From an uncultured Fimbriimonadaceae bacterium (GTDB taxonomy: Bacteria; Armatimonadota; Fimbriimonadia; Fimbriimonadales; Fimbriimonadaceae), in assembly GCA_937961665.1 (NCBI GenBank), contig CALGMO010000047.1:1-45641 (forward strand): a stretch of DNA of 45,641 nucleotides, in the 5' to 3' direction. Made by a program: the position numbers and the translations under genes. The notes beneath the pieces were generated by a model. That model did not search any database, was not told the origin of the DNA, and was given only the letters and a program-made list of their open reading frames with translations. Shown here piece by piece: positions 1 through 26,867 of the stretch (position 1 is the first letter of the stretch; each line of letters begins with the position of its first letter).

Positions 1-608
1 CGATGGAGCGGGCGGCCGACGCGTGCGCGGGGATCGTGCCGGGGGCGCTGGAGGGCGGCGGGCCGGCGGGGGAGACGGCGGTGGTGTTGCCCACGGACCT
101 CGGTCCGGCGTTCCCGGGCAGGAGGGCGACGCTGAGGGACGGGGGACCGAGGCGGCGCGCGCCGGCCACGCCTCGGACGAGTTCGCGACGGCGTGCGGGC
201 CGATGGGCGCGGGGGCGCCGGAGCGGCTGGAGGGGAGGCCGCCGGCGCCGATCCCGCGGGGGTTCGGAGGAGCCGTTGCGCGGCGCGCTGGTCGCGGAGG
301 GCGCGCACCACGCTGCCTGCGAGCCGATGCGCCGCATCCGGACGGAGCGGTGGAAGCCGATCCGCAGGTTCGGCGGGCACCCGACCGCCCCAATGCCGAA
401 CATCGGCGACGGGCCGGGCTGGCGGAGCGGCCGTCGGGTCCGGGGGAGGGGCTGCACGACCTGGCCTCCGATCCGACGGAAGGGCGGAATCCGGCCGGGG
501 ATGCGGCCTGGGCGGGCGTGCCGGAGGGCCGTCCGGCGGCGCCGGTGGGGGCGCGGGCGAACCCGCCGCGGCTGCCCGGCCCGAGCGGGACGGACTCCGA
601 GGAAGGCG
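1..608 (+). pseudogene. Decayed C-terminal half of a sulfatase (5' end outside window)
   Basis: No single frame is a believable protein, but pieces of a sulfatase C-terminal region can be followed in order by switching frames. Frame 3 (about 3-147) gives TAVVLPTDLGPAFPGRRATL, which resembles the TTDHG-GxAFPR-KxTLYD region. Frame 2 (about 152-260) gives APERLEGRPPAPIPRG. Frame 3 (about 261-420) gives EPMRRIRTERWKPIRRF and then PNIGDGP. Frame 2 (about 422-604) gives GEGLHDLASDPTEGRNPAGD and a tail like GARANPPRL. At least three frame changes are therefore needed. The conserved metal-site His of the TDHG motif reads as Leu (99-101), and the usual RYKYI reads as RWKPI, so the damage is not only indels. 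In life such enzymes remove sulfate esters from glycans, which suits the glycosidase neighbours. It ends about 12 bases from the convergent GH4 gene. Sequencing error could explain some indels but not the substitutions. Confidence 0.8.
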
Positions 609-620
609 CCGTCGGGCGGC

Positions 621-2120
621 TCAGACGCCGTGGGTGTCCTTGGCCTTGTCGGCCTCGGCGGCCATTCGGCGGGCGGCCTCGCGGTCGGCCTCCATCTCTC
701 CGACGGTCTTGGCGGGCACGCGGACGCCCTTGTAGTCGCGCGGGGGGATGCGGGGCTCGGTCTGCCATCGGCGTTTGGCCTCGGCGATGGCGGGTCCGTA
801 CTGGGGCAGCCAGCGCTCTTGGGCGATGAGCATCTCGTCGGCCATCTGCCAGACCTCGGGCGGGGTGCAGACGGCTCCGGTGAGGGGGTCGAGGAGCATG
901 GCCTGGCGGAGCCAGAGGTCGTTGCCGTGGACGGCGGCCTCCATGCCGAGGCGCTGGACGGAGACGCTGGCGTTGCAGACGGCGGCGCACCCCATGGGGA
1001 GGTCTCCGACGACCGGCATGGAGATGCCGTTGCGGTCGACGTAGCCGGGTGCCTCGATCACGCAGTCGGGCGGGAGGTTGGCGATGCAGCCGCGGTTGAC
1101 GACGTTGAAGTGTCCGCGGTAGACGCGTCCGGTCTCGAGGGCCTCGATGATGTAGGATCCGTGCTCGGTGCCCCGGGAGGCGGGGTCGAAGCTGAGCGGG
1201 GGCTCCTGCATCCAGTTGGGGAAGTCGTGCTCGAACCAGTTGCGGCTCTCGGTGCAGACGCGGAGGTATCCGCCGGTCTCGCCGTTGATCCAGCTGGAGA
1301 GGGAGATCCAGTTGGGCAGCTCCTCGGGGCGCTTGCGGTACCAGGGGACGTACTCGCTGAGGTGGCCGTTGGACTCGGTGCTGTAGTAGCCGAAGCGGCG
1401 CATCATGTCGATGCGGACCTTCTCGTCCCTGCTGAACTGGGGGTGCCGCTCGAAGGCCTCGAGGAGCTCGGGCAGGAGGTCTCGGCCCTTGTGGCGGACC
1501 TGGATGTACCAGGTTTGGTGGTTGATTCCGGCGCAGACGATGTCGACCTCGTGGTGGGGCAGGCCCAGGGCGGCGGCGATCTGGCGGTGGCCGCCCTCGA
1601 CGCCGTGGCAGAGGCCGACGACGTTCACCCCGTGGCCGTACTTGCTGCAGGCCCAGACGTTCATGGCCATGGGGTTGCTGTAGTTGAGGAAGAGGGCGTC
1701 CTTGGCGCCGACCTCGGCGATGTCCTTGCAGAGGTTCAGGAGGACGGGGATGGTGCGCTGGGCGTACATGAGGCCGCCTGGGCCGAGGGTGTCGCCGACG
1801 CACTGGTCCACGCCGTACCGGAGGGGGATGTCGACGTCGGTCTGGAAGGCCTCGAGGCCGCCGACGCGGACGAAGCTGAGGATGTACTTGGCGCCGTCGA
1901 CGGCCTCGCGCTGGTCGAGGGTCTTGTCGACCTTGGCGGGGAGGCCGGCGGACTCGATGTCTCGGCGGACGAGGCGGCAGGTCATGTCCAGGTTCCGCTC
2001 GCTGATGTCCATGAAGCTGAAGCGGGTGTCCTGGAGCTCGGGGACGGTGAGGATGTCCCGCACCATGGTCCGGGTGAAGCCCACGCTGCCGGCGCCGATG
2101 ATCGCGATCTTCAAGGCCAT
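621..2120 (-). CDS. GH4 family NAD- and metal-dependent glycosidase (alpha-galactosidase/alpha-glucuronidase type)
   Basis: A 499-residue protein with an N-terminal Rossmann motif (IAIIGAGSVGFT) and the GH4 layout: LNYSNPM, CHGVEGGH with Cys171, and GINHQTW with Asn200-His201. Cys171 and His201 are the expected Mn-binding residues. GH4 enzymes hydrolyse glycosides by transient NAD-dependent oxidation at C3 followed by elimination, so they act on alpha or beta bonds depending on subgroup. The CHGV signature is closer to the alpha-glucuronidase subgroup (CHGx) than to the classic MelA CHSV, so the substrate is open. No signal peptide is visible, so it should be cytoplasmic. A GGTAACGT box on the minus strand ends 9 bases before the ATG and no Shine-Dalgarno is seen, which suggests a near-leaderless mRNA. 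Confidence 0.9.
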   Translation of the reverse strand: MALKIAIIGAGSVGFTRTMVRDILTVPELQDTRFSFMDISERNLDMTCRLVRRDIESAGLPAKVDKTLDQREAVDGAKYILSFVRVGGLEAFQTDVDIPLRYGVDQCVGDTLGPGGLMYAQRTIPVLLNLCKDIAEVGAKDALFLNYSNPMAMNVWACSKYGHGVNVVGLCHGVEGGHRQIAAALGLPHHEVDIVCAGINHQTWYIQVRHKGRDLLPELLEAFERHPQFSRDEKVRIDMMRRFGYYSTESNGHLSEYVPWYRKRPEELPNWISLSSWINGETGGYLRVCTESRNWFEHDFPNWMQEPPLSFDPASRGTEHGSYIIEALETGRVYRGHFNVVNRGCIANLPPDCVIEAPGYVDRNGISMPVVGDLPMGCAAVCNASVSVQRLGMEAAVHGNDLWLRQAMLLDPLTGAVCTPPEVWQMADEMLIAQERWLPQYGPAIAEAKRRWQTEPRIPPRDYKGVRVPAKTVGEMEADREAARRMAAEADKAKDTHGV

Positions 2121-2399: not shown

Positions 2400-3803
2400 A
2401 TGGTGTGTTGGTTGGCGGCGCTGGCGCTCTCGTCCCCGCAGGCGGTGTTGGTGGAGCCGGAGAACGGGGCTCTACGGGGCGTGGAGGTGGGCACCTCTCG
2501 GCAGGGGTTCTCGGGCAGGGGCTACCTGACGGGCCTGGACCAGGACGGCGACGGGGCGGACGCGAGCTTCTCGGCGCGGAAGGGCGTGTACGAGGCGGCG
2601 GTGCGCTACTGCTCGCCGGGGCAGCCCAAGGGGTTCGACCTGAGGGTGAACGGAGTCGGGCTGTCGGGCATGCTGCCTGCCACCGGTCCGACCTGGCAGA
2701 CGCGCACGGTGGGGCGCGTCGAGCTGGCGGAGGGGCGGAACGTACTCCGCGTGGAGAAGGGCTGGGGCTGGTACGAGCTGGACCGGGTGGAGTTCCGTCC
2801 GGCGCCCGCTCCCAAGCCGCCCCGGCGGGTGGCGCCGAAGCCGTGCGACCCGAAGGCGACGCCCGAGGCCCGGGCGCTGCTGGCGTTTCTGGCCGGGCAG
2901 TACGGCAGGCGCACGCTGACCGGTCAGGTGGGCGACGACGACGAGCGGTTCGTGCGCGACGCGTCGGGGAGGTCGTCGGCGGTGCGGGCGGGCGACTTCA
3001 TGGACTATTCGCCCAGCCGGCGGGAGCGGGGGGCGAACCCGGGCCGGCACACCGAGGCGATGATCGCGCGGGCCAAGGCGGGGGCGATCGTGACCATGCT
3101 GTGGCACTGGAACGCCCCGTCGGGACTGCTGGACCGGGAGGAGACGCGGCCGGACGGGGGTCGGCGCGACCTGAGGTGGTACCGGGGCTTCTACACCGAG
3201 GCGACCACGTTCGACGTGGCCCGGGCGATGGCCGACCCGGCGTCGGAGGAGAGGAGGCTGCTGCTGAGGGACATCGACGCGATCGCCCAGGAGCTGAAGA
3301 AGTTCGAGCGGGCGAGGGTGCCGGTTCTGTGGCGGCCTCTGCACGAGGCGGACGGCGGGTGGTTCTGGTGGGGCGCCAAGGGTCCGGAGCCGTTCAAGAG
3401 GCTCTGGAGGCTACTCCACCAGCGCCTGACCCGGACGCACGGCCTGCACAACCTGCTGTGGGTGCTGACGGTCTCGGACCCGGCGTGGTACCCGGGGGAC
3501 GACACGGTGGATCTGATCGGCGTGGACGCCTATCCGCCGGACCCGGGCGACGCGCTGACGGGGCAGTGGGACCAGCTGATCCGGCGCTTCGACGGGCGGA
3601 AGATGCTGGCGCTGACGGAGTTCGGCGGCGTGCCGGACCTGGAGCGGATGCACCGGCTGGGGGTCCGGTGGGCGTACTTCGTGTCGTGGCAGGGCGACCT
3701 GGGGCCGCGCAAATCCGGCGCGGAGACGGTGCGTCGGGTCTACGGGTCGCCGGTCGCCCTGAACCTGGAGGACCTGCCGAAGGCCGGTCGCAGGGGCTTC
3801 TAG
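2400..3803 (+). CDS. Secreted GH26-type endo-beta-mannanase-like hydrolase with N-terminal carbohydrate-binding-like domain
   Basis: 467 residues. A short hydrophobic N-terminus (MVCWLAALALSSPQA) looks like a signal peptide. Residues of about 20-140 have a CBM35/CBM6-like beta-sandwich pattern (GRGYLTG, RVEFRPA). The catalytic region begins near ALLAFLAGQYGRR and has the GH26 landmarks MLWHWNAP, RPLHEADGGWFWW with the likely acid/base Glu316, and ALTEFGGVPD with the likely nucleophile Glu407. GH26 members cleave beta-mannans, and some cleave beta-1,3-xylan or mixed-linkage glucan, so the exact substrate is uncertain. The stop codon overlaps the stop of the convergent SDR gene through a shared CTAG. 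It belongs with the nearby GH4 gene and sulfatase remnant in a glycan-degradation group. Confidence 0.88.
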   Translation: MVCWLAALALSSPQAVLVEPENGALRGVEVGTSRQGFSGRGYLTGLDQDGDGADASFSARKGVYEAAVRYCSPGQPKGFDLRVNGVGLSGMLPATGPTWQTRTVGRVELAEGRNVLRVEKGWGWYELDRVEFRPAPAPKPPRRVAPKPCDPKATPEARALLAFLAGQYGRRTLTGQVGDDDERFVRDASGRSSAVRAGDFMDYSPSRRERGANPGRHTEAMIARAKAGAIVTMLWHWNAPSGLLDREETRPDGGRRDLRWYRGFYTEATTFDVARAMADPASEERRLLLRDIDAIAQELKKFERARVPVLWRPLHEADGGWFWWGAKGPEPFKRLWRLLHQRLTRTHGLHNLLWVLTVSDPAWYPGDDTVDLIGVDAYPPDPGDALTGQWDQLIRRFDGRKMLALTEFGGVPDLERMHRLGVRWAYFVSWQGDLGPRKSGAETVRRVYGSPVALNLEDLPKAGRRGF

Positions 3804-12582: not shown

Positions 12583-13845
12583 TCAGGCGTCCACGCACAG
12601 CACCCAGTCGCGTCCGTCGGGGGCTTGCGTTCGCAGGCGCCGAGGCGATGGGCCGGTGTTGTCGGCGGGCAGAAGCTCGCCGGTCTGAGGATCGTGCCAC
12701 TCCAGGCTCGCGGGGTCGAAGCGGACGGTCAGGCGGACCTCCCCGCCGAACGGCACCCACACGAGCGTCCATGGTTTGGGTTCGTCTCCGTGCAGGGCCA
12801 GGCGCCCGCCGATCAGCGCCTCGGGGCGGCGCCCGATCAGGCTTCGGCTCTCGAACAGGCCCTTGAGGTGCCGGACTTGCCCCGCTCCCGGCAGGCGCAG
12901 GGCGTCGAGCCAGGGACGGTCGGCGCCGAGGAACGGCGGAGGAACGATCTTTGAGATGGGCTCCCACTTGGGGTCCCAGAGCATCCACACGTTGTTGCAG
13001 CCGTAGGTGATGCCCGCCGAGCCGGCGAACACGGCGGCGTGCCAGTGGCGGCGCACGTCGGTGTCGTCCAGACGCTCGTTGCGGGGGTCCAGGCGGTCGG
13101 GGATGTTCTCGTAGGCGGGCTCGCCGTCGAGTACCGGCTTGGGAGGTTCCAGGCTCCAGTCGCGGCGGACCCAATCGGCGGGGTCGAGCTCACGCACGTG
13201 GCCGGTCTGGACCATGTTGAAGTCGAGCCAGTCATCCGCGTGGAACGGGTCGGAGGAGGTGCAGGGGCCGTAGGGGTGGTAGGTGATGAGGCAGCGGCGA
13301 CCGACCACGGAGCGGATGCCCCGTGCCATGGCGCGCCACACCTCGGGCGCGAGCCTGGGATCTCGGTCCCCGCCCAGCACGTACACGACGTTGGGACGGT
13401 CGCCGACGGCCTCGGCCAGCCGACGGGCGAAGGCCTCCGCGTTCCCCTCGTGGAAGATGCGGCGGTTCCGGAACAGGGGGTGGTTCTCCTCGTGCGCCCA
13501 GGAGCCCCACGTGGGCAGCAGCGCGATGCGGATGCCGCGGGCCTCGGCCTCGCCGAGGAGGAAGCGCAGCAGGTCCAGGTAGCCGGAGCTGGGCGCGGGG
13601 TCGTCCAGGTCGTCGAGGGGGAGGTTGCCCTCCGCATTGGGCACGAACGGCCCCTCGAGCTCGGAGACGAACACGGTCTGGACGACGTTGAATCCCTGCT
13701 CGGCGCGGACGTCGAGGTACCGCAGCATCTCGGGCCGGGTGGCATGGTGGAGCAGCTCCCAGGCGGTGTCGGCCTGCCAGAAGAAGGGTGAGCCGTCCTC
13801 CAGCGCGAGGGTGCGGCGGTCCGGGGCGATCTGGAGCCTCTGCAT
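12583..13845 (-). CDS. GH140-like (DUF4038) glycoside hydrolase, apiosidase-type
   Basis: 420 residues with no obvious signal peptide. The N-terminal DGSPFFWQADTAWELLHHATRPE and YLDVRAEQGFNVVQTVFV match the DUF4038 TIM barrel, followed by VYVLGGDRDP, ITYHPYG, DFNMVQTGH, PVLDGEPAYENI and AAVFAGSAGITYGCNNVW. The acidic residues in the GGDRD and DGEPAYE segments are the expected catalytic pair. The last roughly 90 residues form the DUF5060/collagen-binding-like beta domain common to the family. Characterised GH140 members release apiose from rhamnogalacturonan II. The substrate here is unknown, but a plant-polymer target fits the GH26 and GH4 genes further left. Confidence 0.88.
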   Translation of the reverse strand: MQRLQIAPDRRTLALEDGSPFFWQADTAWELLHHATRPEMLRYLDVRAEQGFNVVQTVFVSELEGPFVPNAEGNLPLDDLDDPAPSSGYLDLLRFLLGEAEARGIRIALLPTWGSWAHEENHPLFRNRRIFHEGNAEAFARRLAEAVGDRPNVVYVLGGDRDPRLAPEVWRAMARGIRSVVGRRCLITYHPYGPCTSSDPFHADDWLDFNMVQTGHVRELDPADWVRRDWSLEPPKPVLDGEPAYENIPDRLDPRNERLDDTDVRRHWHAAVFAGSAGITYGCNNVWMLWDPKWEPISKIVPPPFLGADRPWLDALRLPGAGQVRHLKGLFESRSLIGRRPEALIGGRLALHGDEPKPWTLVWVPFGGEVRLTVRFDPASLEWHDPQTGELLPADNTGPSPRRLRTQAPDGRDWVLCVDA

Positions 13846-14062: not shown

Positions 14063-15397
14063 ATGCCCGCCGGCTGCGTAGAAGCAGACGTGGGAAAGAA
14101 GCGCGCGATCGTGGTGGGCGCCGGATTCGGCGGCAGCTCGGCGGCCGCCAGGCTGGCGCGCCTGCTGCCCCCGAGGGAGTGGGAGGTGGTGCTGGTCGAC
14201 CGGAACAACTACCTCCTGTTCTACCCGTTGCTCCCGGAGGTCGCCGCCGGCACGCTGGAGCCGCGGCACGTCGTCGTTCCGGCGAGAAGCTTCCTGCCGC
14301 GAGGGAGGTTCGTGTGCGCCGAGGTCACCGGTCTGGACCTTCGCCGGCGGCGCATCCACCTGGCCACGGAGGACGAGCCCGCATGGTCGATGCCCTACGA
14401 CCACCTGGTTCTGGCGCTGGGCTCGGTGACCCGCATGCCCCCTGTGCCCGGGCTTCGCGAGCACGGCTTCGAGCTGAAGACGATCGCGGACGCGGCCAGC
14501 CTGCGGGACCACGGCATCTCGCTGCTCGAGCGGGCCTCCATCGCCAAGGATCCCGAGCTTCGGCGGGAGCTGCTGCGCGTGGTGGTCGTCGGGGCGAACT
14601 TCACCGGCGTGGAGCTGGCGGGGGAGTATCAGGACTTTCTGAGGGACGCCTGCCGCGCCTACCCCGAGCTGGACCCGGACGAGGTGGACGTGGTGGTGGT
14701 GGAGGCTCGGTCGCGCATCCTTCCCGCGCTGCCGGAGTCGCTGGCCGACTACGCCAAGGCTCACCTGGAGCGCCGGGGCCTGCGCTTCGCGACCGAGAGG
14801 ACCGTGGTTCGCGTGGGCCGGCGCGGAGCGGAGCTGTCCGACGGAACCTGGCTCGCCTCGCGGACCGTGGCCTGGTGCGCGGGCATCGCGCCCAACCCGC
14901 TGATCGGCGGCTGCGACGACCTTCCCACGAACGAGATGGGATACATCCGGACTCACCCGGACCTTCGCGTCGAGGGCTACGACGACGTGTGGGCGATCGG
15001 CGATTCGGCGTTCGTGCCCGGTGAGGACGGCCAAGGGTATCCCGCCACGGCGCAGGTGGCGTCGCGGCAGGGTGAGCACGTCGCCCGCAACATCGCCCGA
15101 GCCGTGACGGGGCGGAGCCTCGCGCCGTTCTCGTTCCGATCCCGCGGCGCGCTGGCGGCGCTCGGTTGCCGCACGGCCGTGGCGGAGGTCTTCGGACTCC
15201 GGATCGCGGGCTTCCCCGCATGGTTCCTGTACCGCACCGTGTATCTGCTGAAGGTGCCGACGCTCGGTCGCAAGCTCTCGATCGTCACCGACTGGACGGT
15301 GGATCTGTTCGCCAAGCAGATGCCGGTCCAGCTGGGCCTGCACCGCCGGTCGTCGGAGCAGAACGGAGCGGTGCGTCAGGACGAGGTCAGGCTCTGA
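14063..15397 (+). CDS. ndh: Type II NADH:quinone oxidoreductase
   Basis: 444 residues from ATG 14063; GTG 14090 is an alternative that starts just before the FAD motif. The FAD-binding IVVGAGFGGSSAA, the second nucleotide motif VVVGANFTGVELAGEY, AWCAGIAPNPL and DDVWAIGDSAFVP are typical of NDH-2. It oxidises NADH at the inner face of the membrane and passes electrons to quinone without pumping protons. A C-terminal amphipathic/hydrophobic stretch (AWFLYRTVYLLKVPTLGRKL) is the usual membrane anchor. The second motif reads GANFTG where many homologues have GGGPTG. It overlaps the convergent glycosyltransferase by 11 bases. Confidence 0.92.
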   Translation: MPAGCVEADVGKKRAIVVGAGFGGSSAAARLARLLPPREWEVVLVDRNNYLLFYPLLPEVAAGTLEPRHVVVPARSFLPRGRFVCAEVTGLDLRRRRIHLATEDEPAWSMPYDHLVLALGSVTRMPPVPGLREHGFELKTIADAASLRDHGISLLERASIAKDPELRRELLRVVVVGANFTGVELAGEYQDFLRDACRAYPELDPDEVDVVVVEARSRILPALPESLADYAKAHLERRGLRFATERTVVRVGRRGAELSDGTWLASRTVAWCAGIAPNPLIGGCDDLPTNEMGYIRTHPDLRVEGYDDVWAIGDSAFVPGEDGQGYPATAQVASRQGEHVARNIARAVTGRSLAPFSFRSRGALAALGCRTAVAEVFGLRIAGFPAWFLYRTVYLLKVPTLGRKLSIVTDWTVDLFAKQMPVQLGLHRRSSEQNGAVRQDEVRL

Positions 15398-16619
15398 GCG
15401 AGGAGCCTTCCACGGCCTGACGGATCATCCTCTCGACCTTGGCGATCTGCGCCCGGCGGTCGAAGCGGCGGAGGGCCGCGTCTCTTCCCCGCGCGCCCAA
15501 GGCGCGACGGTCGGCATCGGCCATGTCGGCGAGCCTCCGGATGGCCTCGGCCATGGCCGCGGGGTCCTCCGGAGGGCAGGCGAGGCCCGCGCCGGCCTCC
15601 TCCACCACGCGCCTAGGGTCTCCCTCGAGGGCGCAGACGATCGGCTTGCCGACCGCCAGGTAGGACTGGACCTTGTGCGGGATGGTGATCGCCGCCAGCG
15701 GGTCCCGCCGCAGGTGCACCAGCAGGGCGTCGGCCAGCGCGTAGATCGGCGTCATCTCGCTGGTCGGGAAGCTGCCGAGGAAGCGGACGTTCGACAGCCC
15801 CTCCTGCTCGGCGCGGCGCTGGAGGGTCTCGCGCTCGACGCCGTCCCCCGCCAGGCAGATCTGGATCTCCGGGCGGTCGCGCAGCAGGGCGGCGGCGTCC
15901 AGCAGCGTGCCGAGGTTCTGCATCAGGCCGATGTTCCCGGCGTACAGCACGTTGAACCGGCCGGCCATCCCCAGGCGCTCGGCCAAAGCGGGGTCGGGCT
16001 CGCACGGGCGGTAGAAGTCGGTGTCCACCCAGTTCTCGATCACCTCGATCTTGTCGGCCGGCACGCCCTTGCCGACGAGGTTCTCGCGGAAGCCCGGCGA
16101 GATCACGCGGATCCGCTCGGCCCAGCGGTAGGTGGCGTCGCACAGGCGGCCTACGGCGCCGAGCGCGCGCGGGGAGGAGACCATGCCCGTGGCGGCGAGC
16201 GTCTCGGGCCACAGGTCCTGAATCTCCAGCGTGTGCGGGACGCGCCACAGGCCGCCGACCCACCGGGCGGAAGCGCACAGCGTCGCCAGCTGCACCACGT
16301 GGATGCAGGCAGGGCGACGGACCAGCCACGGACCGAGCAGGGAGAACGACGAGGCCAGGGAGAACAGGTTCAGCACGCGCCGGAGGCGGGACTTCGAGTG
16401 GTCGGCGAACGTCTTGAGGCGCAGCACGGGCACGCCTTGGTGCTCGTCCCACTGGCGCCAACGGTTGCGGTAGCCCTCGTAGATCCTGCCGGAGGGCCAG
16501 TTCGGGTAGCCGGTGACCACCACCACGTCGTGCCCGAGCTCCTTCAGGCCGACCGCCAGCTCGCCGTACAGCTGCGTCGGCTCCGGGGGGAAGTATTGGG
16601 TGAGCAGGACGATGCGCAA
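15387..16619 (-). CDS. GT4-family glycosyltransferase, WbuB-like (L-FucNAc transferase)
   Basis: 410 residues from a TTG start at 16619, three bases after the fnlC stop. It is a GT-B fold enzyme: N-terminal LLTQYFPPEP, GHDVVVVTGYPNWPSG, LEIQDLWPET, then the donor-binding VLYAGNIGLMQNLGTLLDA, SYLAVGKPIVCALEGD and EEAGAGLACPPEDPAAMAEAI. The overall pattern and gene position match WbuB, which adds L-FucNAc from UDP-L-FucNAc in O-antigen and capsule synthesis. Following the three UDP-L-FucNAc enzymes in one operon, that donor is the natural inference. The acceptor cannot be read from sequence. Confidence 0.85.
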   Translation of the reverse strand: MRIVLLTQYFPPEPTQLYGELAVGLKELGHDVVVVTGYPNWPSGRIYEGYRNRWRQWDEHQGVPVLRLKTFADHSKSRLRRVLNLFSLASSFSLLGPWLVRRPACIHVVQLATLCASARWVGGLWRVPHTLEIQDLWPETLAATGMVSSPRALGAVGRLCDATYRWAERIRVISPGFRENLVGKGVPADKIEVIENWVDTDFYRPCEPDPALAERLGMAGRFNVLYAGNIGLMQNLGTLLDAAALLRDRPEIQICLAGDGVERETLQRRAEQEGLSNVRFLGSFPTSEMTPIYALADALLVHLRRDPLAAITIPHKVQSYLAVGKPIVCALEGDPRRVVEEAGAGLACPPEDPAAMAEAIRRLADMADADRRALGARGRDAALRRFDRRAQIAKVERMIRQAVEGSSLRA

Positions 16620-16622
16620 GCC

Positions 16623-17753
16623 TCAGACCTTGGACCAGACCGTACGGTTCACGTAGTGCACGTAGCTGTGGATGATCCTCACCACCTTCTCGGACACGTT
16701 CGGCACGTCGTAGTCGGCGACGATGCGCAGGTCGCGCTCGGGTCTGCGCTTCTGGCCCATCACCAGCCGAAGGCCGCGCAGCACCGAGTCGGGCTCCAGG
16801 CCGGTGAGCACCACGGCGGCCTCCTCCATGCCCTCGGGGCGCTCGTGCGCCTGGCGGATGTTGACCGCGGGGAAGTTCAGGATCGACGACTCCTCGGTGA
16901 TCGTGCCGCTGTCCGAGAGCACGGCGGCCGCCTCCATCTGGAGCCGCACGTAGTCGGACAGCCCCAGCGGCTTCATCAGCTCGACCTGCGGGGGAAGCTC
17001 GACTCCCTCGGCCTCGATCCGCTTGCGGGTCCGGGGGTGGGTGGAGAAGATCATCCGCAGGCCGAACTCCGAGGCGACGGCGCGCAGGGTGCCCACCAGG
17101 TTGCGGAACTGCTCCGGGGAGTCGATGTTCTCCTCCCGGTGCGCGCTGACTACGAAGTACCGGCGCGGCTCCAGGCCCAGCCGATCCAGAACCGACGAGG
17201 CGAGGATCTTGGGCATGTAGTGGTGCAGCACCTCGCACATCGGGCTGCCGGTCTTGATCACCCGGTCCGGCGGCAGGCCCTCGCGGAGCAGGTACTCGCG
17301 CGAGATGGAGCTGTAGGGGAGGTTCACGTCGCTGATGTGGTCGACGATGCGGCGGTTGATCTCCTCGGGCACGCGCTGGTCGAAGCAGCGGTTGCCGGCC
17401 TCCATGTGGAAGATCGGGATCTTGCGGCGCTTGGCGGGGATGGCGGCCAGACAGCTGTTCGTGTCGCCAAGCACGAGGAACGCGTCGGGCTGGACCTCCG
17501 CCAGGACGGGGTCGATGCGCGCGATCACCTGTCCGATCGTCTCGGCGGCCGTCGCGCCGGCGGCCCCGAGGAAGCGGTCCGGGCGGCGGATCTCCAGGTC
17601 CTCGAAGAAGATTTCGTTGAGCTCGTAGTCGTAGTTCTGCCCGGTGTGGACCAGCGTGTGCTCCGTGTGCCTCTCGAGGGCGGCGATCACGCGCGAGAGC
17701 CGGATGATCTCCGGCCGGGTGCCGACGACGGTCATCACCTTCAGCCGATTCAC
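16623..17753 (-). CDS. fnlC: UDP-N-acetyl-sugar 2-epimerase, FnlC/CapG/WbjD type
   Basis: 376 residues from GTG 17753, which overlaps the fnlB stop (GTGA). [77 protein letters not shown] and [11 protein letters not shown] are the WecB-fold motifs. The specific wording ([38 protein letters not shown] split across two stretches) matches FnlC rather than the ManNAc-forming WecB. It would convert UDP-N-acetyl-L-pneumosamine to UDP-N-acetyl-L-fucosamine, the last step of the cassette. In vivo it works with the fnlA and fnlB products encoded just upstream. Confidence 0.93.
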
Positions 17754-18865
17754 GGGCCGACCTCCTCGAAGATCGTGTCCGGCCGATCGGGGTCGAACGG
17801 TTCGCTGGCCCAGAAGAGGGTCACCAGGTCGCGGTCCCCGACGTTCTCGATGCAGTGGGTGTAGCCGGGCGGGATGTCGACCGGTCGCAGGTCCTCGCCG
17901 GACACCCGGACGTCGATGCGCGCGCCGGTGTCGATGTGGCGGAACCGGACGACCGCCTCCCCCTCGAGCACCAGGAACTTCTCCGTCTTGGTTCGGTGGT
18001 GGTGGTTGCCGCGCACGATGCCCGGTTTGGTGCGCGAGACGAAGATCTGGCCGGCGGAGCGGCTCTTGACGAACTCGGCCAGCACGCCGCGCGGGTCGGT
18101 CCTCTGGGTCAGAGGGTAGGCGAGCTCCTCCTCGGGGAGGTAGGAGAGGTACGTGGCGTAGAGCCGGTGGGTCAGGGGGTCGGAAAGGTCCGGCAGCCAG
18201 AGGCTCGTGCGGAGTTCCCGGAAGGAGCGGATGCGCTCGGCCAGCTCCCCCAGGCGGATTCTGCCGGTGGGAGGAACGGAGCGGAGGTGGAACCCGCGGG
18301 GCCGCTCGCCGGCCGTTTCGAGGAAGGCGTCCACGACGTCGTCGACGTACACCAGTTCCAGCTCGCGGTCCGGGTCGTGCACCTCGACCGGCTCGTCGCG
18401 GGCGATGCGGTGGCAGAACGTGGCCACCACGCTGTTGTAGTTCGGCCGGCTCCACTTGCCGAACAGGTTGCCCAGGCGGAACGCCACGGCGTCCAGGATC
18501 CCTTGTGCCGCCGCGTGCTCCAAGTGGCGCTCGGCCTGGAGCTTGCTGCGGCCGTAGGGGTTGTCCAGCTCGGCCTGGATGCTGGAGCTGAGGATCACCA
18601 GCGGCCGGGTTCCGAGGGCCTCGGCGGCCCGGCAGAGGCGCTCGGTGAGACCCGCGTTGACGGCCTCGAACTCCGCTGGGTCGGGCGGGCGGTTGGCGCC
18701 GGCCAGGTGGAACACGGTGTCGCAACCCTCGAGGGCCGCCTCGAGATCCGCGGGGCCGACCCCGACGTCGAACCGGACGACCTCCAGGTCCGCCACGGTG
18801 CGCAGGGCTGCGCGCAGGTTCCTTCCGACGAACCCCTCGGAGCCGGTGACCAGCACCCGCCTCAT
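17750..18865 (-). CDS. fnlB: Bifunctional reductase/epimerase for UDP-L-FucNAc synthesis, FnlB/CapF type
   Basis: 371 residues. The N-terminal SDR domain has [26 protein letters not shown] and [11 protein letters not shown]; the Tyr and Lys of the YxxxK motif are intact. The C-terminal cupin domain (about 265-371) has [23 protein letters not shown] with its metal-binding histidines and [10 protein letters not shown]. In CapF the cupin epimerises C3 and the SDR domain reduces C4, using the FnlA product. The ATG at 18865 overlaps the fnlA stop (ATGA) and its own stop overlaps fnlC, giving a three-gene coupled unit. Confidence 0.94.
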
Positions 18866-19902
18866 CGACCGGCCCCCTGCAGGGCCTCCTGGACGAACGG
18901 CAGGGAGGCGAGCAGGTCGCGCATCTCCCCGACCGTCAGGCGCTGGGTGTTGTGGGAGTGGTAGTCCTCGAGCTCGTTGATGCGCGGCGATCCCTCGGTG
19001 AAGTACAGCGCGTAGTTCAGGTCGCGGGTGTCGGCCGGAACGCGGTAGTAGCCGCCGTGGTCCTCGGCGCGGGCCATCTCCTCGCGGGTGAGGAGCGTCT
19101 CGTAGAGCTTCTCGCCGTGGCGGGTGCCGATGATCTGGATCGGGTTGTCCGCGCGGAACAACAGCTTGAGCGCCTGCACGACGGTTTCGAGCGTGGCCGC
19201 CGGGGCCTTCTGCACGAAGATGTCTCCCGGCTGGGCGTTGTCGAAGGCGTACAGCACCAGGTCCACGGCGTCGTCGATGGACATCATGAACCGGGTCATC
19301 TGGGGGTCGGTGACGGTGAGGGGCTTGCCGGCGAGGATCTGCTCGATCCAGAGTGGGATGACCGACCCGCGCGATCCCATCACGTTGCCGTAGCGGGTGG
19401 CGCACAGCACCGTGCCCTTCGCCGCCGCGACGCGCGACTTGGCGAGCATCAGCTTCTCCATGAGCGCCTTGCTCAGGCCCATGGCGTTGATGGGCGCGAC
19501 GGCCTTGTCCGTGCTGAGCAGCACGACGGAACGGACTCCCGCGTCGATGGCGGCGTTCATGACGTTCTCCGTTCCGAGGGAGTTGGTGCGGACGGCCTCG
19601 AGCGGATAGAACTCGCACGAGGGGACCTGCTTGAGCGCGGCCGCGTGGAACACGATGTCCACGCCGACCATGGCGTCCTTCAGGCTGTCGGGGTCGCGGA
19701 CGTCGCCGATGTAGAAGCGGAGCTTCGGGTCGCGATAGGCGTTCCGCATGTCCTCCTGCTTCTTCTCGTCGCGGCTGAACACGCGGATCTCGCGGATGTC
19801 CGTCTGGAGGAACCGCCGGAGCACGGCGTTGCCGAAGGTGCCCGTTCCGCCGGTCACCAGGAGGGTCTTGCCATGGAAGGAAGAGGAAGGCGTCGCGCTC
19901 AT
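18862..19902 (-). CDS. fnlA: UDP-GlcNAc 4,6-dehydratase/5-epimerase, FnlA/CapE/WbjB type
   Basis: 346 residues. [20 protein letters not shown] binds the cofactor. [21 protein letters not shown] is the hallmark active site, with Met in the place of the usual SDR catalytic Tyr, as in CapE and PseB. It also has [25 protein letters not shown] and a C-terminal [10 protein letters not shown]. It dehydrates and epimerises UDP-GlcNAc to start UDP-L-FucNAc synthesis. As the first gene of the minus-strand operon it is separated by about 115 bases from the divergent wzz-like gene. A possible minus-10 TATCCT lies at 19926-19931. Confidence 0.95.
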
Positions 19903-19973
19903 CTCGGAATCACCCGACCATGGCGAGGATACCCCCCGCGGGAGGGAGCATCCGGAGCACGAGCCGGGGCAGG

Positions 19974-19981
19974 GGTAGACT
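19974..19981 (+). promoter_or_regulatory. Minus-10 box GGTAGACT for the wzz-flippase-wzy operon
   Basis: GGTAGACT, 34 bases before the chosen start at 20016, in the divergent region shared with fnlA. GGGAGG at 20006-20011 provides a ribosome-binding site for ATG 20016. Confidence 0.5.
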
Positions 19982-20015
19982 GGCCTCCGTTCCTGACACG
20001 GCCATGGGAGGCGGC

Positions 20016-21212
20016 ATGGGTTCGAAGGCTTGGAGGGCGCCGGCGATCGGCGCGGCGCTGGGGGTGGCGGCGATGGCGCTGTACACCTATCTCGTTCCGC
20101 CTCGCTGGGTGGCCAGGGCGGCGCTGCTGATTCCGTACGACGAGAACGCGACCACTCGGCTCGGCCTTCCGGCCATGGTCCAGCAGGCGGACCCGCTCTC
20201 GGTTCTGCGGGGCATCGTGCTGAGCCGGTCGTCGCTGGTGCGCGTGTCGCAGGCGACGGGTCTGCCCGTCCGCGAGCTGGAGGTGCGGTTCGACGTGCAG
20301 GTCAGCCCCGAGGACAACCAGCTGCTGCTGGCCTGCCAGCACACCAACCGCGCTCTGGCCGAGGAGGTCGTGCGACAGGCGATCCGGAGCTTGGCGTACT
20401 TGGCGCGGACCAACACGGTGTCCGTCGGCTCGCGGCAGGCCAAGTACCTGGAGGAGGCGATCGCCCGTCGCAAGGAGGATTTGGACGCCGCCCAGCGGGA
20501 GTTGGCCCAGTACGTGCGCGACTCCCGAACCGTGCTGGATCCCGGCTCGCCGCTGGCCAACGCCGAGTACGTGCGGCGCTATCGGGACGCCCAGCTGGAG
20601 CTGGCGAAGGTCGAGCAGCAGATCTCCGCGATGCGCGACTCCGCCACCCGGCTTGGCGGACCGACCCTCGAGGTGCCCTCGGGCATCCCGGAGATCGAGG
20701 CCTGGCGCGCCAAGACGGCGCAGGCGGAGTACGACCTGAAGGTGGCTCGGTCGCAGTACGGCGAGGAGGCGCCGGCGGTGGTGCGGGCCCGGCAGGCGCT
20801 CGAGGCCGCCCGGCAGTCGCTGCGGCAGGAGGTCAGCCGCTACGTGCAATCGGTGAACCAGGGGGTGACGCAGAAGGTGGCGGACCTGGTGGCCCAGCGC
20901 ACCGTGCTCCAGTGGCAGGTCGACACGCTGCGCAAGCTCGCCGACGCCACCCCGGAAGAGGCGGTGGAGTTCTCGAAGAAGCTCCAGCGGGTGCAGGAGC
21001 TGACGGCCTCTCTGGCGTTCCTGCAGGAGCAGTACGAGCAGGCCAAGGCGAAGGCCGAGGTGGAGCGGGTGCGGTGGAGCCTGCTGACTCCGCCCTACGT
21101 GGAGGAAAAGCCGGTGAACAAGAGCTACAGCCGCAACGGCCTGATCGGGCTGCTGCTGGGCGGACTCGCCGGACTGCTCGCGTCCAACCGGAGGCGGGTC
21201 TCGGAGCCGTGA
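20016..21212 (+). CDS. Wzz-like polysaccharide co-polymerase / chain-length determinant
   Basis: 398 residues from ATG 20016 (GGGAGG five bases upstream); ATG 20004 is a weaker alternative. Topology is TM1 near residues 10-30 (IGAALGVAAMALYTYLVPP), a large periplasmic region with long coiled-coil stretches (about 140-360) and TM2 near the C-terminus (LIGLLLGGLAGLLAS). That is the PCP-1/Wzz arrangement. The typical Pro-rich pre-TM2 segment is present as PPYVEEKPVNKSYS. No cytoplasmic tyrosine kinase domain is fused, so it is not a Wzc. It likely sets chain length together with the Wzy-like gene downstream. Confidence 0.85.
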   Translation: MGSKAWRAPAIGAALGVAAMALYTYLVPPRWVARAALLIPYDENATTRLGLPAMVQQADPLSVLRGIVLSRSSLVRVSQATGLPVRELEVRFDVQVSPEDNQLLLACQHTNRALAEEVVRQAIRSLAYLARTNTVSVGSRQAKYLEEAIARRKEDLDAAQRELAQYVRDSRTVLDPGSPLANAEYVRRYRDAQLELAKVEQQISAMRDSATRLGGPTLEVPSGIPEIEAWRAKTAQAEYDLKVARSQYGEEAPAVVRARQALEAARQSLRQEVSRYVQSVNQGVTQKVADLVAQRTVLQWQVDTLRKLADATPEEAVEFSKKLQRVQELTASLAFLQEQYEQAKAKAEVERVRWSLLTPPYVEEKPVNKSYSRNGLIGLLLGGLAGLLASNRRRVSEP

Positions 21213-22486
21213 CGGCGACCCGGTCGCGTCTGGTCAGGGGCTTGGCGGCGCTCGTGTCGGGCACGGCGGGCGCGCAGGCGGTCACGCTCCTCTCGACGCC
21301 GATCCTCGTTCGCCTGTACGGCATGGAGCGCTGGGGAGAGTTCGGGGCGTTCTCGGCGCTCTACCTGACGCTGCTCACGGTGGCGGCGATGCGCTTCGAT
21401 CAGGCCGTGCCGGTCGCCAAGAGCGACGAGGAGGCGAGGGCGGTTCTCGCACTGGGCCAGCTGGCGGCCGCAGGGCTCGCGGCGGCGGTGTTCGTCTGTT
21501 CTCTGGCCTTCGGTCCCTGGCTGGCGGAGGTCAGCAGGGTGGCCGCTCTGAGGGACCAGCCGTGGCTGCTTCCCCTGGCGCTGGCGGGCGGCGGCCTGTA
21601 CGTGGCGTTCAGCTCGTGGCACCTCCGGCGGGGGTCGTTCCGGGTGGTTGCGGCCACGACGTTCACGCAGTCGCTGGCGATGGCGGCCGTGCAGTTCGCC
21701 GGCTGGTTCGTCGCGCCGATGAGGGCGTTCGCCCTTCCGCTGGGCTTGGCGGCGGGCCGGTCGGTGGGCTTTCTGAACCTGTGGAGGGGCTACCTGCGCG
21801 ACGTGGCCGGCGGCGCGGGCCGGTCGGGCCTGAGGGAGGCATGGAGAGGCTACAGCCGGTTCGCCCTGCTGGGGGTTCCGTCGTCGCTGGCCAACGCCGC
21901 GGGCCTGCAGGCGCCGACCGTTCTGCTGAGCGCGCTGTTCGGGACGTGGGCCGCCGGTCAGTTCTACACCTCGATGCGGGTTCTCGGGCTTCCGATGGTG
22001 TTCCTCGGGGCGGCGGTGTCCCAGGTCTACCTCTCGGAGTTCGGGCGGCTGCTGCGCGAGAACCCGGGGGGCCTGCGACGGTTCTACCGTGGGGCGGTGC
22101 GCCGGCTGCTTGCGGTGTCGCCGTTGCTGGCGGCGATGGGCTGCACGGCCCCCTGGTGGTTTCCAATCGTGTTCGGACCGGAGGCGGCGCGGGCGGGGCT
22201 ATGGAGCCTGTGGCTCACGCCGAGCCTGTGCCTGGGGCTGGTGTGTTCGCCGGTCAGCTCCACGGCGAACTCGCTCGGCCGGCAGGACCTCCAACTGGGC
22301 ATGGATCTGCTGCGCCTGGCGCTGACGGTGGCCTGCTTCGCGATTCCGGCGAGGGGTTGGAGCGCCGACGCCAGGGTGGCGCTGTACGGTGCGATGATGG
22401 CGGCGACCTATCTGGCTTACCTGCTTCTTTACGACAGGCTCGCGGCGCGCGCGAGCTCGCCTGCGGCGGCCGGGGAGGCGGCGTGA
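21209..22486 (+). CDS. Polysaccharide flippase (Wzx/MOP superfamily)
   Basis: 425 residues from GTG 21209 (GTGA overlap with the previous stop). It is highly hydrophobic, with about 12 membrane segments and an N-terminal ALVSGTAGAQAVTLLSTPILVRLYG that matches the polysaccharide biosynthesis protein family. This type exports lipid-linked repeat units across the inner membrane. Its position between the co-polymerase and the polymerase supports a Wzx role, though transporters of this superfamily cannot be told apart with certainty from sequence alone. Its stop overlaps the next gene's GTG. Confidence 0.85.
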   Translation: MTATRSRLVRGLAALVSGTAGAQAVTLLSTPILVRLYGMERWGEFGAFSALYLTLLTVAAMRFDQAVPVAKSDEEARAVLALGQLAAAGLAAAVFVCSLAFGPWLAEVSRVAALRDQPWLLPLALAGGGLYVAFSSWHLRRGSFRVVAATTFTQSLAMAAVQFAGWFVAPMRAFALPLGLAAGRSVGFLNLWRGYLRDVAGGAGRSGLREAWRGYSRFALLGVPSSLANAAGLQAPTVLLSALFGTWAAGQFYTSMRVLGLPMVFLGAAVSQVYLSEFGRLLRENPGGLRRFYRGAVRRLLAVSPLLAAMGCTAPWWFPIVFGPEAARAGLWSLWLTPSLCLGLVCSPVSSTANSLGRQDLQLGMDLLRLALTVACFAIPARGWSADARVALYGAMMAATYLAYLLLYDRLAARASSPAAAGEAA

Positions 22487-23052
22487 AGCGGCTGGCCACG
22501 CGCCTGTTCAATCTGTTCGTGGGCGGCCCGCTGTGGCTGCTCGCGCCGCTGCTCGGCTTCGACCGGCGGTACTTCCGCGGGAGGCACTTCGAGCGCCACA
22601 CCTCCGGCTACCGGATGGTGCTGAGGGCGATCCTCTTTCAGAAGATCCTGGGCTTCAACCGGTCGTGCCGTTTCCCGGTGAGCCACCAGTCCGTGGTCTC
22701 GAACGGCAGGAACTTGCTGTTCGATCCCGACGACTTCAACAACCTGTGGCACTTCGGCTGCTACTTCCAGAACTTCGACGCCACGATCCGGATCGGAAAA
22801 GGGACCTACATCGCTCCGAACGTCGGGATCATCACGGCGGACCACGACCTGGAGGACCTCGACGCCCACCAGCCCGGCAAGCCGGTGGTGATCGGCGAGA
22901 AGTGCTGGATCGGCATGAACGCCGTGATTCTGCCGGGCGTGGTTCTGGGCGACCGCACGGTCGTCGGGGCCGGGGCCGTGGTCACGAAGAGCTTCCCCGA
23001 GGGCCATTGCGTGCTCGGCGGCGTGCCGGCGAGGAAGATCCGGGATCTGTGA
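22483..23052 (+). CDS. Left-handed beta-helix (hexapeptide) acyltransferase
   Basis: 189 residues from GTG 22483 (GTGA overlap). N-terminal hydrophobic/aromatic region of about 80 residues, then a hexapeptide-repeat domain: IRIGKGTYIAPNVGIITADHDLEDLDAH with a catalytic-type His, IGEKCWIGMNAVILPGVVLGDRTVVGAGAVVTKSF split over several turns, and the ending GGVPARKI. It most probably O-acetylates a sugar of the polysaccharide repeat using acetyl-CoA. Acceptor sugar and position are unknown. Confidence 0.85.
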   Translation: MKRLATRLFNLFVGGPLWLLAPLLGFDRRYFRGRHFERHTSGYRMVLRAILFQKILGFNRSCRFPVSHQSVVSNGRNLLFDPDDFNNLWHFGCYFQNFDATIRIGKGTYIAPNVGIITADHDLEDLDAHQPGKPVVIGEKCWIGMNAVILPGVVLGDRTVVGAGAVVTKSFPEGHCVLGGVPARKIRDL

Positions 23053-23059
23053 GGCATCG

Positions 23060-24403
23060 ATGGGCGAGTTGACCGCGCTCGGTTGGGCGTATCTGGCGGC
23101 AGGCGCGGCGGCGATGGCCGGTGCGGCTGCGGCCGCGGGCCGGTCGCTGGTCGGCTTCGTGCGGTCTCCGCTGGCGGTGGCGCTGACGTACTTCGGCTTC
23201 GCGTTCCTGATCGTTCCCGGCCTGAACCTTCTGTTCGGCGTGTCGTTCTGGCAGAGCTCCTACCGTCCGGATTCGGTCGAGCGCGCGCTGTGGCTCTCCC
23301 TCGGCTTCGCGGGGCTGGTCGCGGCCGGGTATCGATGCACCGCCCCCCTGCGGGCCGAGGCGCCCGCCAACCCGCGGCCGGTCGGGGAACCGGGTTGGAC
23401 GATCGCCGCCTTCGCGCTGGCTTTCCTCGGATTCGCCGGCTTGGGGCTGTTGGCCAGGAGCGTTCTGGAGGCCGGCGGTCTGGCGAACTATCTGCTGCTG
23501 CGGAACACTCTGGCGGCCGGCGAGGGCCCGTCGCTGATCCTCATCGCCCTTTGGCAGGCGATTCCGGCGTTGATCCTCGCGGAGGTTCTGGCTCGGCGGG
23601 CGGCCTCGGTGCCGGTCGGCCGGTGGAGGCTGGCGTTCTTCGCGGCTCTGGCGGTCGCTGTCGCCGTGGGCCTGTTCCAAGGGAGCCGAACCAAGGCGCT
23701 GTTTCCCCTGCTGGCCGCCGGCATGGTCTGGGTGGCCCTGCAGCCCGGCGAGCTCCCGCGCAGGTTCAAGCTGGCTCTTCTGGGGTCGGTGGGGGCGCTG
23801 GCGCTCGTGGGAGGCGTGCTCGGCATCGCCCGGGAGTCGGTCGCGGCGGGCCGGGCGGTGCGGTCTGAGGCCTTCGCCGGCCCTAGGCTGGTGACCGAGG
23901 CGTTCCGGGAATACGAGAACCTGTGGTACCTGCTCGACCACGAGGCGCGCCTGAAGCCGCTGGGGGGCTCGACGTTCCTCGCCGGCTTCGTGTTCTGGGT
24001 GCCGCGGAGCATCTGGCCCGACAAGCCGCTGGGCGGGGGGCCGGAGATCGTGAACTTCATCTGGCCCTGGGGCTACGAGCCGGGGCGGAAGGACAACCGA
24101 TCGTCGATCACGCCCGGCTTGATGGCCGAGGGGTTCATGAACTTCGGGGCGCCGGGCGTGCTGCTGGCGGGGGGCTTCTACGGCCTTCTGCTGGGCCTGC
24201 TGGCCAGGGTGTGGGCGCGGACCCGCAGCGCCTGCCTCGCCGGCTTGGCCGTGTGCCTCTCGCTGCGCGGGGCGGAGTTCCTCGGCATGGAGTTCTTCGG
24301 GGGACTGTTCAACCTGCTGGCGGTGGCTCTCCCGTTCCTGGTGGCGTGGGCCGCCGAGGCGCGCCTTGGGGGAAGCCCCGTGCCGGAGGGCGAGGGAGCC
24401 TAG
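23060..24403 (+). CDS. Wzy-like O-antigen/polysaccharide polymerase
   Basis: 447 residues, mostly membrane segments (about 11), starting seven bases after the acyltransferase stop. A large periplasmic loop near residues 280-350 holds WYLLDHEARLKPLGG, a WVPRSIWPDKPLGGGPE segment and FIWPWGYEPG; the Pro-Asp-Lys-Pro motif resembles O-antigen ligase/polymerase loops (oligosaccharide repeat unit polymerase family). It should join repeat units at the outer face of the inner membrane. Proteins of this class are poorly conserved, so topology and location carry the call. The stop lies inside a 16-base repeat that also carries the stop of the convergent gene. Confidence 0.8.
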   Translation: MGELTALGWAYLAAGAAAMAGAAAAAGRSLVGFVRSPLAVALTYFGFAFLIVPGLNLLFGVSFWQSSYRPDSVERALWLSLGFAGLVAAGYRCTAPLRAEAPANPRPVGEPGWTIAAFALAFLGFAGLGLLARSVLEAGGLANYLLLRNTLAAGEGPSLILIALWQAIPALILAEVLARRAASVPVGRWRLAFFAALAVAVAVGLFQGSRTKALFPLLAAGMVWVALQPGELPRRFKLALLGSVGALALVGGVLGIARESVAAGRAVRSEAFAGPRLVTEAFREYENLWYLLDHEARLKPLGGSTFLAGFVFWVPRSIWPDKPLGGGPEIVNFIWPWGYEPGRKDNRSSITPGLMAEGFMNFGAPGVLLAGGFYGLLLGLLARVWARTRSACLAGLAVCLSLRGAEFLGMEFFGGLFNLLAVALPFLVAWAAEARLGGSPVPEGEGA

Positions 24404-24464
24404 TCCTTCCTTCGGTCGCGTGCAGAACCTTCGGAGCGCAGGACCCGGGGGCGAGGGAGCCTAG
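24388..24464. repeat. 16-base direct repeat carrying the stop codons of two convergent genes
   Basis: GGGCGAGGGAGCCTAG occurs at 24388-24403 and again at 24449-24464, 61 bases apart. The first copy ends in the TAG of the wzy-like gene. The CTA of the second copy is the TAG of the minus-strand glycosyltransferase. The spacer has no gene. Confidence 0.9.
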
Positions 24465-25570
24465 GCGAGCCACTCGCGGACCAAGGCCGCCATCGCCTCG
24501 TCCCAAGGGCGGAACGGGAGCCCCGCCAGCCGGGCGCCCATCTCGAGCGGTTCGGCGGGATTCTGCGCCCATCGGGCGAGCAGGTCCGCGAGGGCCCGGG
24601 GGTCGGCGTAGGGCACCGCCGCCGCGCCGCCGATCTCCCGGTAGGGCTGGGCCGTGGCCACCTCCTCGTTCACCAGGATGGCGCACCGCGTGAGCACGCA
24701 GTCGCCCCATTTGTTCGACTCGGCCAGGCGGTTGATCGCCAGCGAGGGGTCGTAGAACGTCAGGCAGGCGTGGGCCCGGTGGTAGAGCGCCAGCGACTCG
24801 GCCGGGGTCACCTCTCCGCGATACTCGGCGAAGGGGTGTTCCATGAGGCGGGCGGCCTGCGGCACCGTGGGGTCGATCCTACCGGCGAGGAGGACCCGGA
24901 ACGGGGGCCCGTCGTAGACGTCCAAGGCTTGGACGAGCGAGTCCAGCCCGCGCGTCGGCGCCAGCCAGCCGTTGACGTACAGCGTGAAGGTCCCGTCGCG
25001 GACGTAGCCCCTCTGTCGCGCGATCTCGTTCGCCTTGGCCAGGTCGTCCGTCAGGGGGTAGTTGGGCACGACCCGCAGGTTGGGGTCGGCGCTGGGCCAC
25101 CTCGCGGAGGACGGCACCAGGTGGATCTTGGCCGCCGCGGCCGCCCGGCGCTCCATGCGGGCGATCACGGGGCGGACGGGCCCCGGCCAAGGGTAGGCCA
25201 GGCTCAGGGTGTCGTTGTCGTCGAAGAACAGGTTGAGGCGCCTGCCGCCCGCCAGCCTCGCGGCCGGGTGCGCCGACCAGAGGCTGAGGGCGTAGACGTC
25301 GGCGCCCGCGGGGAGTTCGCGCAGGGCGCGCCGCAGGGCCGCCATGTAGCGCAGATACCACCGGATCAGCGCGCGGTTCTTGTATCCGCCGCCCGCCAAG
25401 ACCGTGCGGGTGGCGACGGGCGGCTCGTTGTCGGGTTCGGCCGGATCGCGCTTCCAGGCGAGGTGGAGGATGTCCAAGCCCTCGCGCGAGAGGACGGATG
25501 CGATCTTCCGCGTGCGCACCAGCGAGCCGACGTTCGCGACCGGCGCCAGAAGGACGACCCGTCGGCTCAT
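24461..25570 (-). CDS. GT-B family glycosyltransferase of the polysaccharide locus
   Basis: 369 residues from ATG 25570, overlapping the wecC-like stop (ATGA). N-terminal VVLLAPVANVGSLVRTRKIASVLSREGLD-type acceptor domain, NLFFDDNDTLSLAYPWPG, then FTLYVNGWLAPTRGLDSLVQAL, RVLLAGRID and a C-terminal RLAESNKWGDCVLTRCAILVNEE segment in place of the usual EAMA..G.PVV donor motif. The fold looks like GT4-type GT-B, but the donor motifs are divergent, so I cannot name the sugar. Coupled expression with a UDP-ManNAc dehydrogenase-type gene suggests a uronate donor such as UDP-ManNAcA, which is inference. Confidence 0.7.
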   Translation of the reverse strand: MSRRVVLLAPVANVGSLVRTRKIASVLSREGLDILHLAWKRDPAEPDNEPPVATRTVLAGGGYKNRALIRWYLRYMAALRRALRELPAGADVYALSLWSAHPAARLAGGRRLNLFFDDNDTLSLAYPWPGPVRPVIARMERRAAAAAKIHLVPSSARWPSADPNLRVVPNYPLTDDLAKANEIARQRGYVRDGTFTLYVNGWLAPTRGLDSLVQALDVYDGPPFRVLLAGRIDPTVPQAARLMEHPFAEYRGEVTPAESLALYHRAHACLTFYDPSLAINRLAESNKWGDCVLTRCAILVNEEVATAQPYREIGGAAAVPYADPRALADLLARWAQNPAEPLEMGARLAGLPFRPWDEAMAALVREWLA

Positions 25571-26781
25571 GGCTTTCGGGCGATGCCGCAGAAGTCGAGC
25601 AGCTTCTCGCGGGGCAGGTCCGCCTCGCGGAAAGGCGTGTGGGCGACGAGCCCCACCAGAACGTCCGCGGTCTGGATGGCCGTCTGCAGATCGACCAGCC
25701 GGGCGTCGGGCTGGGCGGTTCCGGTTGCGAACGGCTCGACGGCGACCACGCGGAGCCCCTCCGCGGCGAGCGTGCGGTAGATGCGCAGCGCGGGGCTCTC
25801 GCGGAAGTCGTCGATGTCCGGCTTGAACGCCAGGCCGAGGCAGGCGACGAGCGGCTCCCGGCCCTCGTGGCGCAGCTGGGCTACCCGGCGCAGCACCTGC
25901 GCGACGACCCACTCCGGCTTGTTGTCGTTCACGCGGCGGGCCGAGTGGATGAGGCGGGCGAGGTCCGGGTGCGCGTCCACCAGGAACCAGGGGTCGACGG
26001 CGATGCAGTGGCCCCCCACCCCGCAGCCGGGCTGGAGGATGTTCACGCGGGGGTGGCGGTTGGCCAGAGCGATGAGCTCCCACACGTCAATCCCCTCGCG
26101 CTCACAGATCATCGAGAGCTCGTTGGCGAAGGCGATGTTGACGTCGCGGTAGCTGTTCTCGACCAGCTTGGCCATCTCCGCGGTGCGGGCGTCCGTCAGA
26201 TGGATGCCTCCCCGCACGAAGGCGCGATAGATCGATGCGGCGGCCTCGGCGGCCTCCGGCGTCAGGCCCCCGACGATGCGGTCGTTGTGGACCAGCTCGT
26301 GGAGGATCCGGCCGGGGAGCACCCGCTCCGGGCAGTAGGCGGCGTGGAACCGGACGCCCGGCGCGGCCTCCGCGAGAGCGGCGGCGAGCCTCTCAGTGGT
26401 TCCGACGGGGGACGTGGACTCCAGCACCACGACGGCCCCGTCGCGCAGGAACGGCGCGATGGCCCTGCCGGCGGCGAACACGTAGCTCAGGTCGGGCGAG
26501 GGGATGTCCCCGCTGGCTCGGAAGGGGGTCGGCACGCAGAGGAAAAAGGCGTCGGCCTCGGTCGGCTCGGCCTGGGCCGAGAGCCTGCCGGAGGCGACGG
26601 CCTCCCGCAGGGCGGCCTCCAAGTCCGGCTCGACGATGTGGGGGACGGCGGAGTTGACCGCCCGCACCGCCTCCGGGTTGACGTCGACTCCGACCACCCT
26701 CAGGCCCGCCTGGGCCATCACCACGGCGGTCGGCAGGCCGATGTAGCCCAGTCCGACCACACAAACGGTTTGGGAGGGCAT
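25567..26781 (-). CDS. UDP-N-acetyl-D-mannosamine-type nucleotide-sugar dehydrogenase (WecC-like)
   Basis: 404 residues from ATG 26781. VCVVGLGYIGLPTAVVMAQAG binds NAD. CVPTPF, STSPVGTTE, YCPERVLPG and AEMAKLVENSYRDVNIAFANE are family motifs. Catalytic Cys259 lies in GCGVGGHCIAVDPWFL. The set matches WecC/CapL, which oxidise UDP-HexNAc to the uronic acid in two NAD-dependent steps. No ManNAc-forming WecB is present in the window; the only epimerase (fnlC) belongs to the FucNAc branch, so the substrate could be UDP-GlcNAc instead. A minus-strand CATAAT (26791-26796) ends 9 bases before the ATG. Confidence 0.88.
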   Translation of the reverse strand: MPSQTVCVVGLGYIGLPTAVVMAQAGLRVVGVDVNPEAVRAVNSAVPHIVEPDLEAALREAVASGRLSAQAEPTEADAFFLCVPTPFRASGDIPSPDLSYVFAAGRAIAPFLRDGAVVVLESTSPVGTTERLAAALAEAAPGVRFHAAYCPERVLPGRILHELVHNDRIVGGLTPEAAEAAASIYRAFVRGGIHLTDARTAEMAKLVENSYRDVNIAFANELSMICEREGIDVWELIALANRHPRVNILQPGCGVGGHCIAVDPWFLVDAHPDLARLIHSARRVNDNKPEWVVAQVLRRVAQLRHEGREPLVACLGLAFKPDIDDFRESPALRIYRTLAAEGLRVVAVEPFATGTAQPDARLVDLQTAIQTADVLVGLVAHTPFREADLPREKLLDFCGIARKP

Positions 26782-26790
26782 GATGCCGTC

Positions 26791-26843: not shown

Positions 26844-26867
26844 GGCCGGGTTCGAGAGGCGGGTTCG

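Follow-up and report, generated by a model that had tools for sequence, protein, structure and literature searches.

In sulfatases, the TDHG motif and the lysine that follows it take part in metal binding and catalysis. The closest described systems to the locus presented here are the S1_8 sulfatases (PDB 9bb9, 9bbd) and SGSH (PDB 4mhx), the best solved relatives of an intact homologue that aligns with it. Their C-terminal motif order (TDHG, K, EPMR.VRT.RWKYIRRF, L.DL..DP.E..N) is also found at the start of contig C47 of an uncultured Fimbriimonadaceae bacterium, a complete contig of 45,641 nucleotides that constitutes the window analyzed throughout and that belongs to a 2.88 Mb draft genome in 142 contigs. 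Unlike the S1_8 sulfatases and SGSH, however, the remnant on C47 is spread over several reading frames and lacks the TDHG histidine and the lysine, while the CxPxR signature and the N-terminal half are absent from its contig. As judged from sequence, the remnant is probably the 3′ half of an old S1_8/SGSH-like sulfatase pseudogene. Its segments and flanking features are listed in Table 1.

Table 1. Segments of the sulfatase remnant and features that flank it (window coordinates)
Feature	Coordinates	Strand	Remarks
Remnant segment 1	3..161	+	frame 3; TDHG region (reads TDLG) and conserved Lys region (reads Arg)
Remnant segment 2	161..259	+	frame 2; DEFATA...GAPERLEGRPPAPI; several codons lost just before
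Remnant segment 3	261..437	+	frame 3; EPLRGALVAEGAHHAACEPMRRIRTERWKPIRRFGGHPTAPMPNIGDGP
Remnant segment 4	440..520	+	frame 2; GEGLHDLASDPTEGRNPAGDAAWAGV; frame 2 likeness may start at ~410
Weaker end segments	522..583	+	frame 3 (522-554), frame 2 (554-583); reach the family's natural C-terminus
Spurious open frame, 787 codons	3..2366	+	spans the remnant and runs antisense through GH4
GH4 glycosidase, intact, 499 aa	621..2120	-	convergent with the remnant
GH26 with CBM35, intact	2400..3803	+	–

A bait consensus for collecting relatives was written from general knowledge of the S1_8/SGSH-like subfamily, and the real sequences that it retrieved, 110 intact proteins, constitute the homology evidence. 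When these were compared to window positions 1-640 using tblastn, frame 3 was matched with a best E of 2.5e-18 (scaled to 1 Mb), and the bait consensus matched frame 2 also. Bases 1-640 were also aligned, with frameshifts allowed, to a profile built from the 110 proteins, the kind of search that a preliminary description of this DNA had proposed. The alignment covered positions 3-583 and scored 325 half-bits, as compared to 209 half-bits with frameshifts forbidden, 37±4 (maximum 47) for Markov controls (n=100), and 37±5 (maximum 63) for tiles of the remaining window on both strands. By this alignment, bases 3-583 are homologous to the C-terminal half of S1_8/SGSH-like sulfatases. The path runs through frames 3-2-3-2 and then a weaker 3-2 up to the family's natural C-terminus, with five frame changes and no stops, the latter being expected at 80% GC. 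The scores and the path bear out the earlier proposal that four ordered segments in frames 3, 2, 3, and 2 make up the C-terminal half of a sulfatase and that no single frame is sensible. The Pfam and NCBIfam sulfatase models (including PF00884 and PF16347) were unmatched by any single frame or by the joined reading; an intact homologue, cut to the equivalent C-terminal part, does match PF00884 and PF16347. The family match of the remnant is full length only when the frames are combined.

Loss of conserved residues was scored at highly conserved columns, defined as those with the consensus in at least 85% of sequences. The remnant retains the consensus residue at 45 of these 61 columns (0.74), below all 110 intact homologues (minimum 0.817, mean 0.947). 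As the preliminary description had noted, TDHG reads TDLG (H59L, profile column) and RWKPI stands in place of the family sequence, which is RWKYI in the homologues. The conserved lysine behind TDHG reads arginine (K67R), and profile columns Y148 and D177 are also altered. Several whole codons are absent, beyond single-base losses, and substitutions appear to be commoner than indels, with conserved codons affected. The remnant thus combines frameshift interruption with relaxed constraint at conserved sites, as in a pseudogene; of the features of a functional sulfatase it has the C-terminal homology and lacks both a match above the Pfam cut-off and the TDHG histidine and lysine.

GC content at codon positions 1/2/3 is 0.77/0.68/0.94 in the remnant, as compared to 0.70/0.44/0.91 in GC-rich intact homologues (position 2, 0.44±0.03), and position-2 GC in the corresponding region of the 110 intact homologues is at most 0.48. 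Glycine, alanine, arginine, and proline together account for 58% of residues, versus ≤41% in comparison sequences. The GC content of the remnant was unmatched by any 608-bp window in the ~450 kb of genome sampled, with two spacers on contig C89 coming near (77-79% GC). At codon positions 1 and 2 of conserved columns, 10 of the 44 AT sites had changed to GC and none of the 70 GC sites to AT, counts that come from a small sample and carry the bias of a least-change choice of ancestral codon. Together, the residue loss, the missing codons, and the codon-position GC shift indicate that the remnant has lost its reading frame and much of the constraint on its protein sequence.

The 5′ half of the gene, with the C/S-x-P/A-x-R formylglycine signature, falls beyond the contig end, and an orphan sulfatase 5′ half was not found in the genome. 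In G002, a genome of the same genus, the GH4-GH26-SDR order is kept with no sulfatase alongside; beyond GH4 lie a spacer and then an SPFH gene, and sulfatase similarity is at background. The frame of the G002 GH4 gene (L031, G002:C80) is broken in that assembly by ten N in its C-terminal part, at about 13756-13765. The SPFH gene of the genome studied here lies close to the beginning of contig C89, and the left end of C89 was chosen for the 5′-half search because SPFH is the next recognizable gene beyond GH4 in G002. Besides SPFH and a small gene downstream of it, this contig end contains GC-rich spacers and an open frame of 319 aa that is unrelated, and no sulfatase was convincingly recognized in it; the few L084 matches there were weak, occurred on both strands, and were gone after composition correction. 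Also on this contig (L191, G000:C89; 910-1015, minus strand) are two exact copies, 77 bp apart, of the 29-bp sequence ACTCGTGGCCCCGGGGTTTCCCCCGAGAC, for which no copy was found elsewhere in the genome or in G001 or G002. The spacing of the pair faintly resembles a two-repeat CRISPR-like remnant.

A DNA search with window positions 1-620 in 40 relatives returned short matches only, the joined protein reading compared to 17 genomes returned only its self-match, and none of 113 genomes of the class contained an S1_8-like match at E≤1e-40. The last result leaves no close orthologue, from the same genus or class, with which to polarize the changes. The literature was also searched for pseudogenes of sulfatases in this group, and nothing relevant came up.

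Because the remnant begins at base 1 of a draft contig, assembly error was the first thing to rule out. An intact sulfatase gene misread at a low-coverage contig end would fit this position in a draft of 142 contigs, whose ends are often poorly covered, and the one-way AT to GC change could in principle stem from over-calling of G. Such errors, however, are not expected to shift the composition of codon position 2, and they sit poorly with an apparent excess of substitutions over indels that reaches conserved codons and with the loss of whole codons. The damage also halts at a gene boundary, as the degraded stretch ends at the stop codon of GH4, directly adjoining the intact GH4 frame. Nothing comparable was seen at other contig starts of the genome: 40 were compared, one of which was masked, and in 39/39 readable starts the first 600 bp had a GC content of ≤76%, versus 80.5% in the remnant. 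Given the lost residues, the end of the damage at the GH4 stop codon, and the 39 unlike contig starts, decay is likelier than sequencing error, and we regard a misread intact gene as unlikely.

The decayed sulfatase could instead belong to another organism and have been joined to contig C47 by chimera or contamination, which would be in keeping with the GC content of 80% versus 70% for the remaining window, with the empty search of the 113 class genomes, and with the background profile score (38) at the syntenic place in G002. Its position-3 GC (0.94) and its preference for G over C nevertheless resemble those of local genes such as GH26, and its natural 3′ end adjoins that of GH4, as is normal for convergent genes, making a foreign origin very improbable. 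That much of the C-terminal half is recognizable across frames might also suggest a functional gene decoded through programmed frameshifts, but at least three shifts would be required, to our knowledge no recoding occurs in the S1_8/SGSH-like sulfatase family, the conserved metal-site and lysine residues are altered, and no intact homologue has a comparable composition at codon position 2; this reading is scarcely credible. Real gene decay, as the preliminary description had it, remains the best reading, in view of the frame changes, the loss of conserved active-site residues, the limit of the damage at the stop codon of GH4, and the intact GH4 and GH26-CBM35 genes alongside. We infer that this lineage once had a working copy of the gene and that the damage is a property of the cell's DNA as well as of the assembly.

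The intact GH4 and GH26 neighbors had been described correctly, and the further proposal was that the strain may have lost desulfation of a sulfated glycan while keeping the hydrolases. This was not supported, as four other full-length sulfatases, each with a Cys-type signature, remain in the genome, and G002 keeps GH4 and GH26 without a sulfatase. In G001 there are two strong sulfatase matches, and in G002 only one weak PF00884 gene above the cut-off; the sulfatase set is thus variable within the genus. The evidence supports the loss of one sulfatase; that a particular glycan is no longer desulfated is unsupported, and no evidence connects the GH4 and GH26 described here with any sulfated glycan. 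The glycan-degradation island also proposed found no support, as an island around a sulfated substrate, in the neighboring genes (SDR, a PEP-CTERM-like protein, IMPase, MltG, Sua5, and MetG), which are mostly housekeeping. Another glycan-degrading gene, apiosidase-like (PF13204), lies ~10 kb from GH4 and GH26 at window positions 12583-13845. A polysaccharide synthesis and export cluster occupies positions 15387-30371 (glycosyl transferase, Polysacc_synt_2, UDP-sugar dehydrogenase, and SLBB/Poly_export), with weak Wzz and O-antigen polymerase matches.

Like bacterial pseudogenes in general, the remnant lies next to intact genes and shows shifted frames, small deletions, and weakened conservation. 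Mutation is AT-biased in all bacterial clades studied by Hershberg and Petrov (PMC2936535), and M. leprae pseudogenes show an excess of GC-to-AT change according to work cited in PMC2936529; in contrast to the bias toward AT reported in these sources, the remnant is GC-richer than every intact homologue examined. Its composition apparently shifted toward GC as it decayed, given its 80% GC and its position-2 GC of 68% as compared to at most 48% in the 110 intact homologues. That unselected DNA in this high-GC lineage drifts toward GC, whether by GC-biased gene conversion or because mutation itself is biased toward GC, is possible but doubtful, and one 600-bp case of such drift is a lead only. 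Other spacers of the genome are in general no GC-richer than genes, which weakens the idea of genome-wide neutral drift, while, given the GC-rich spacers (two on C89, one in the window), it need not yet be dropped. The C89 spacers and the one in the window (44511-44946) contain no sulfatase, and those on C89 are also without a recognizable family. One C89 spacer (2692-3203; L191, G000), located between SPFH and the gene for an L9-like ribosomal protein, is 512 bp long and 79.5% GC, and measures ~120 bp in G002. Spacers examined for a second decayed gene, as a test of the direction of the GC change, were on C48, on C52, in one further region, and at C46:11105-11608; those on C48 and C52 look like missed intact genes, and the further one looks like a tRNA-bearing region.

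In the proposed course of events, a sulfatase gene originally oriented toward GH4 would have lost its function, after which small deletions, frame-changing indels, and substitutions may have piled up and removed conserved residues. Ordinary annotation would probably have missed the result, since sequence of 80% GC has too few stop codons to break long spurious frames; an antisense-shadow frame over the remnant, as reported in the preliminary description, is indeed present as a 787-aa open frame. In kind, the remnant is most likely an ordinary dead gene, and it serves as an example of pseudogenes hidden in very GC-rich genomes, where stops are rare and long spurious frames lie on top. If decay toward GC is true, such stop-free decay would leave many pseudogenes unannotated, and if it holds in other pseudogenes of the lineage, it would bear on the debated question of why some bacterial genomes stay GC-rich.
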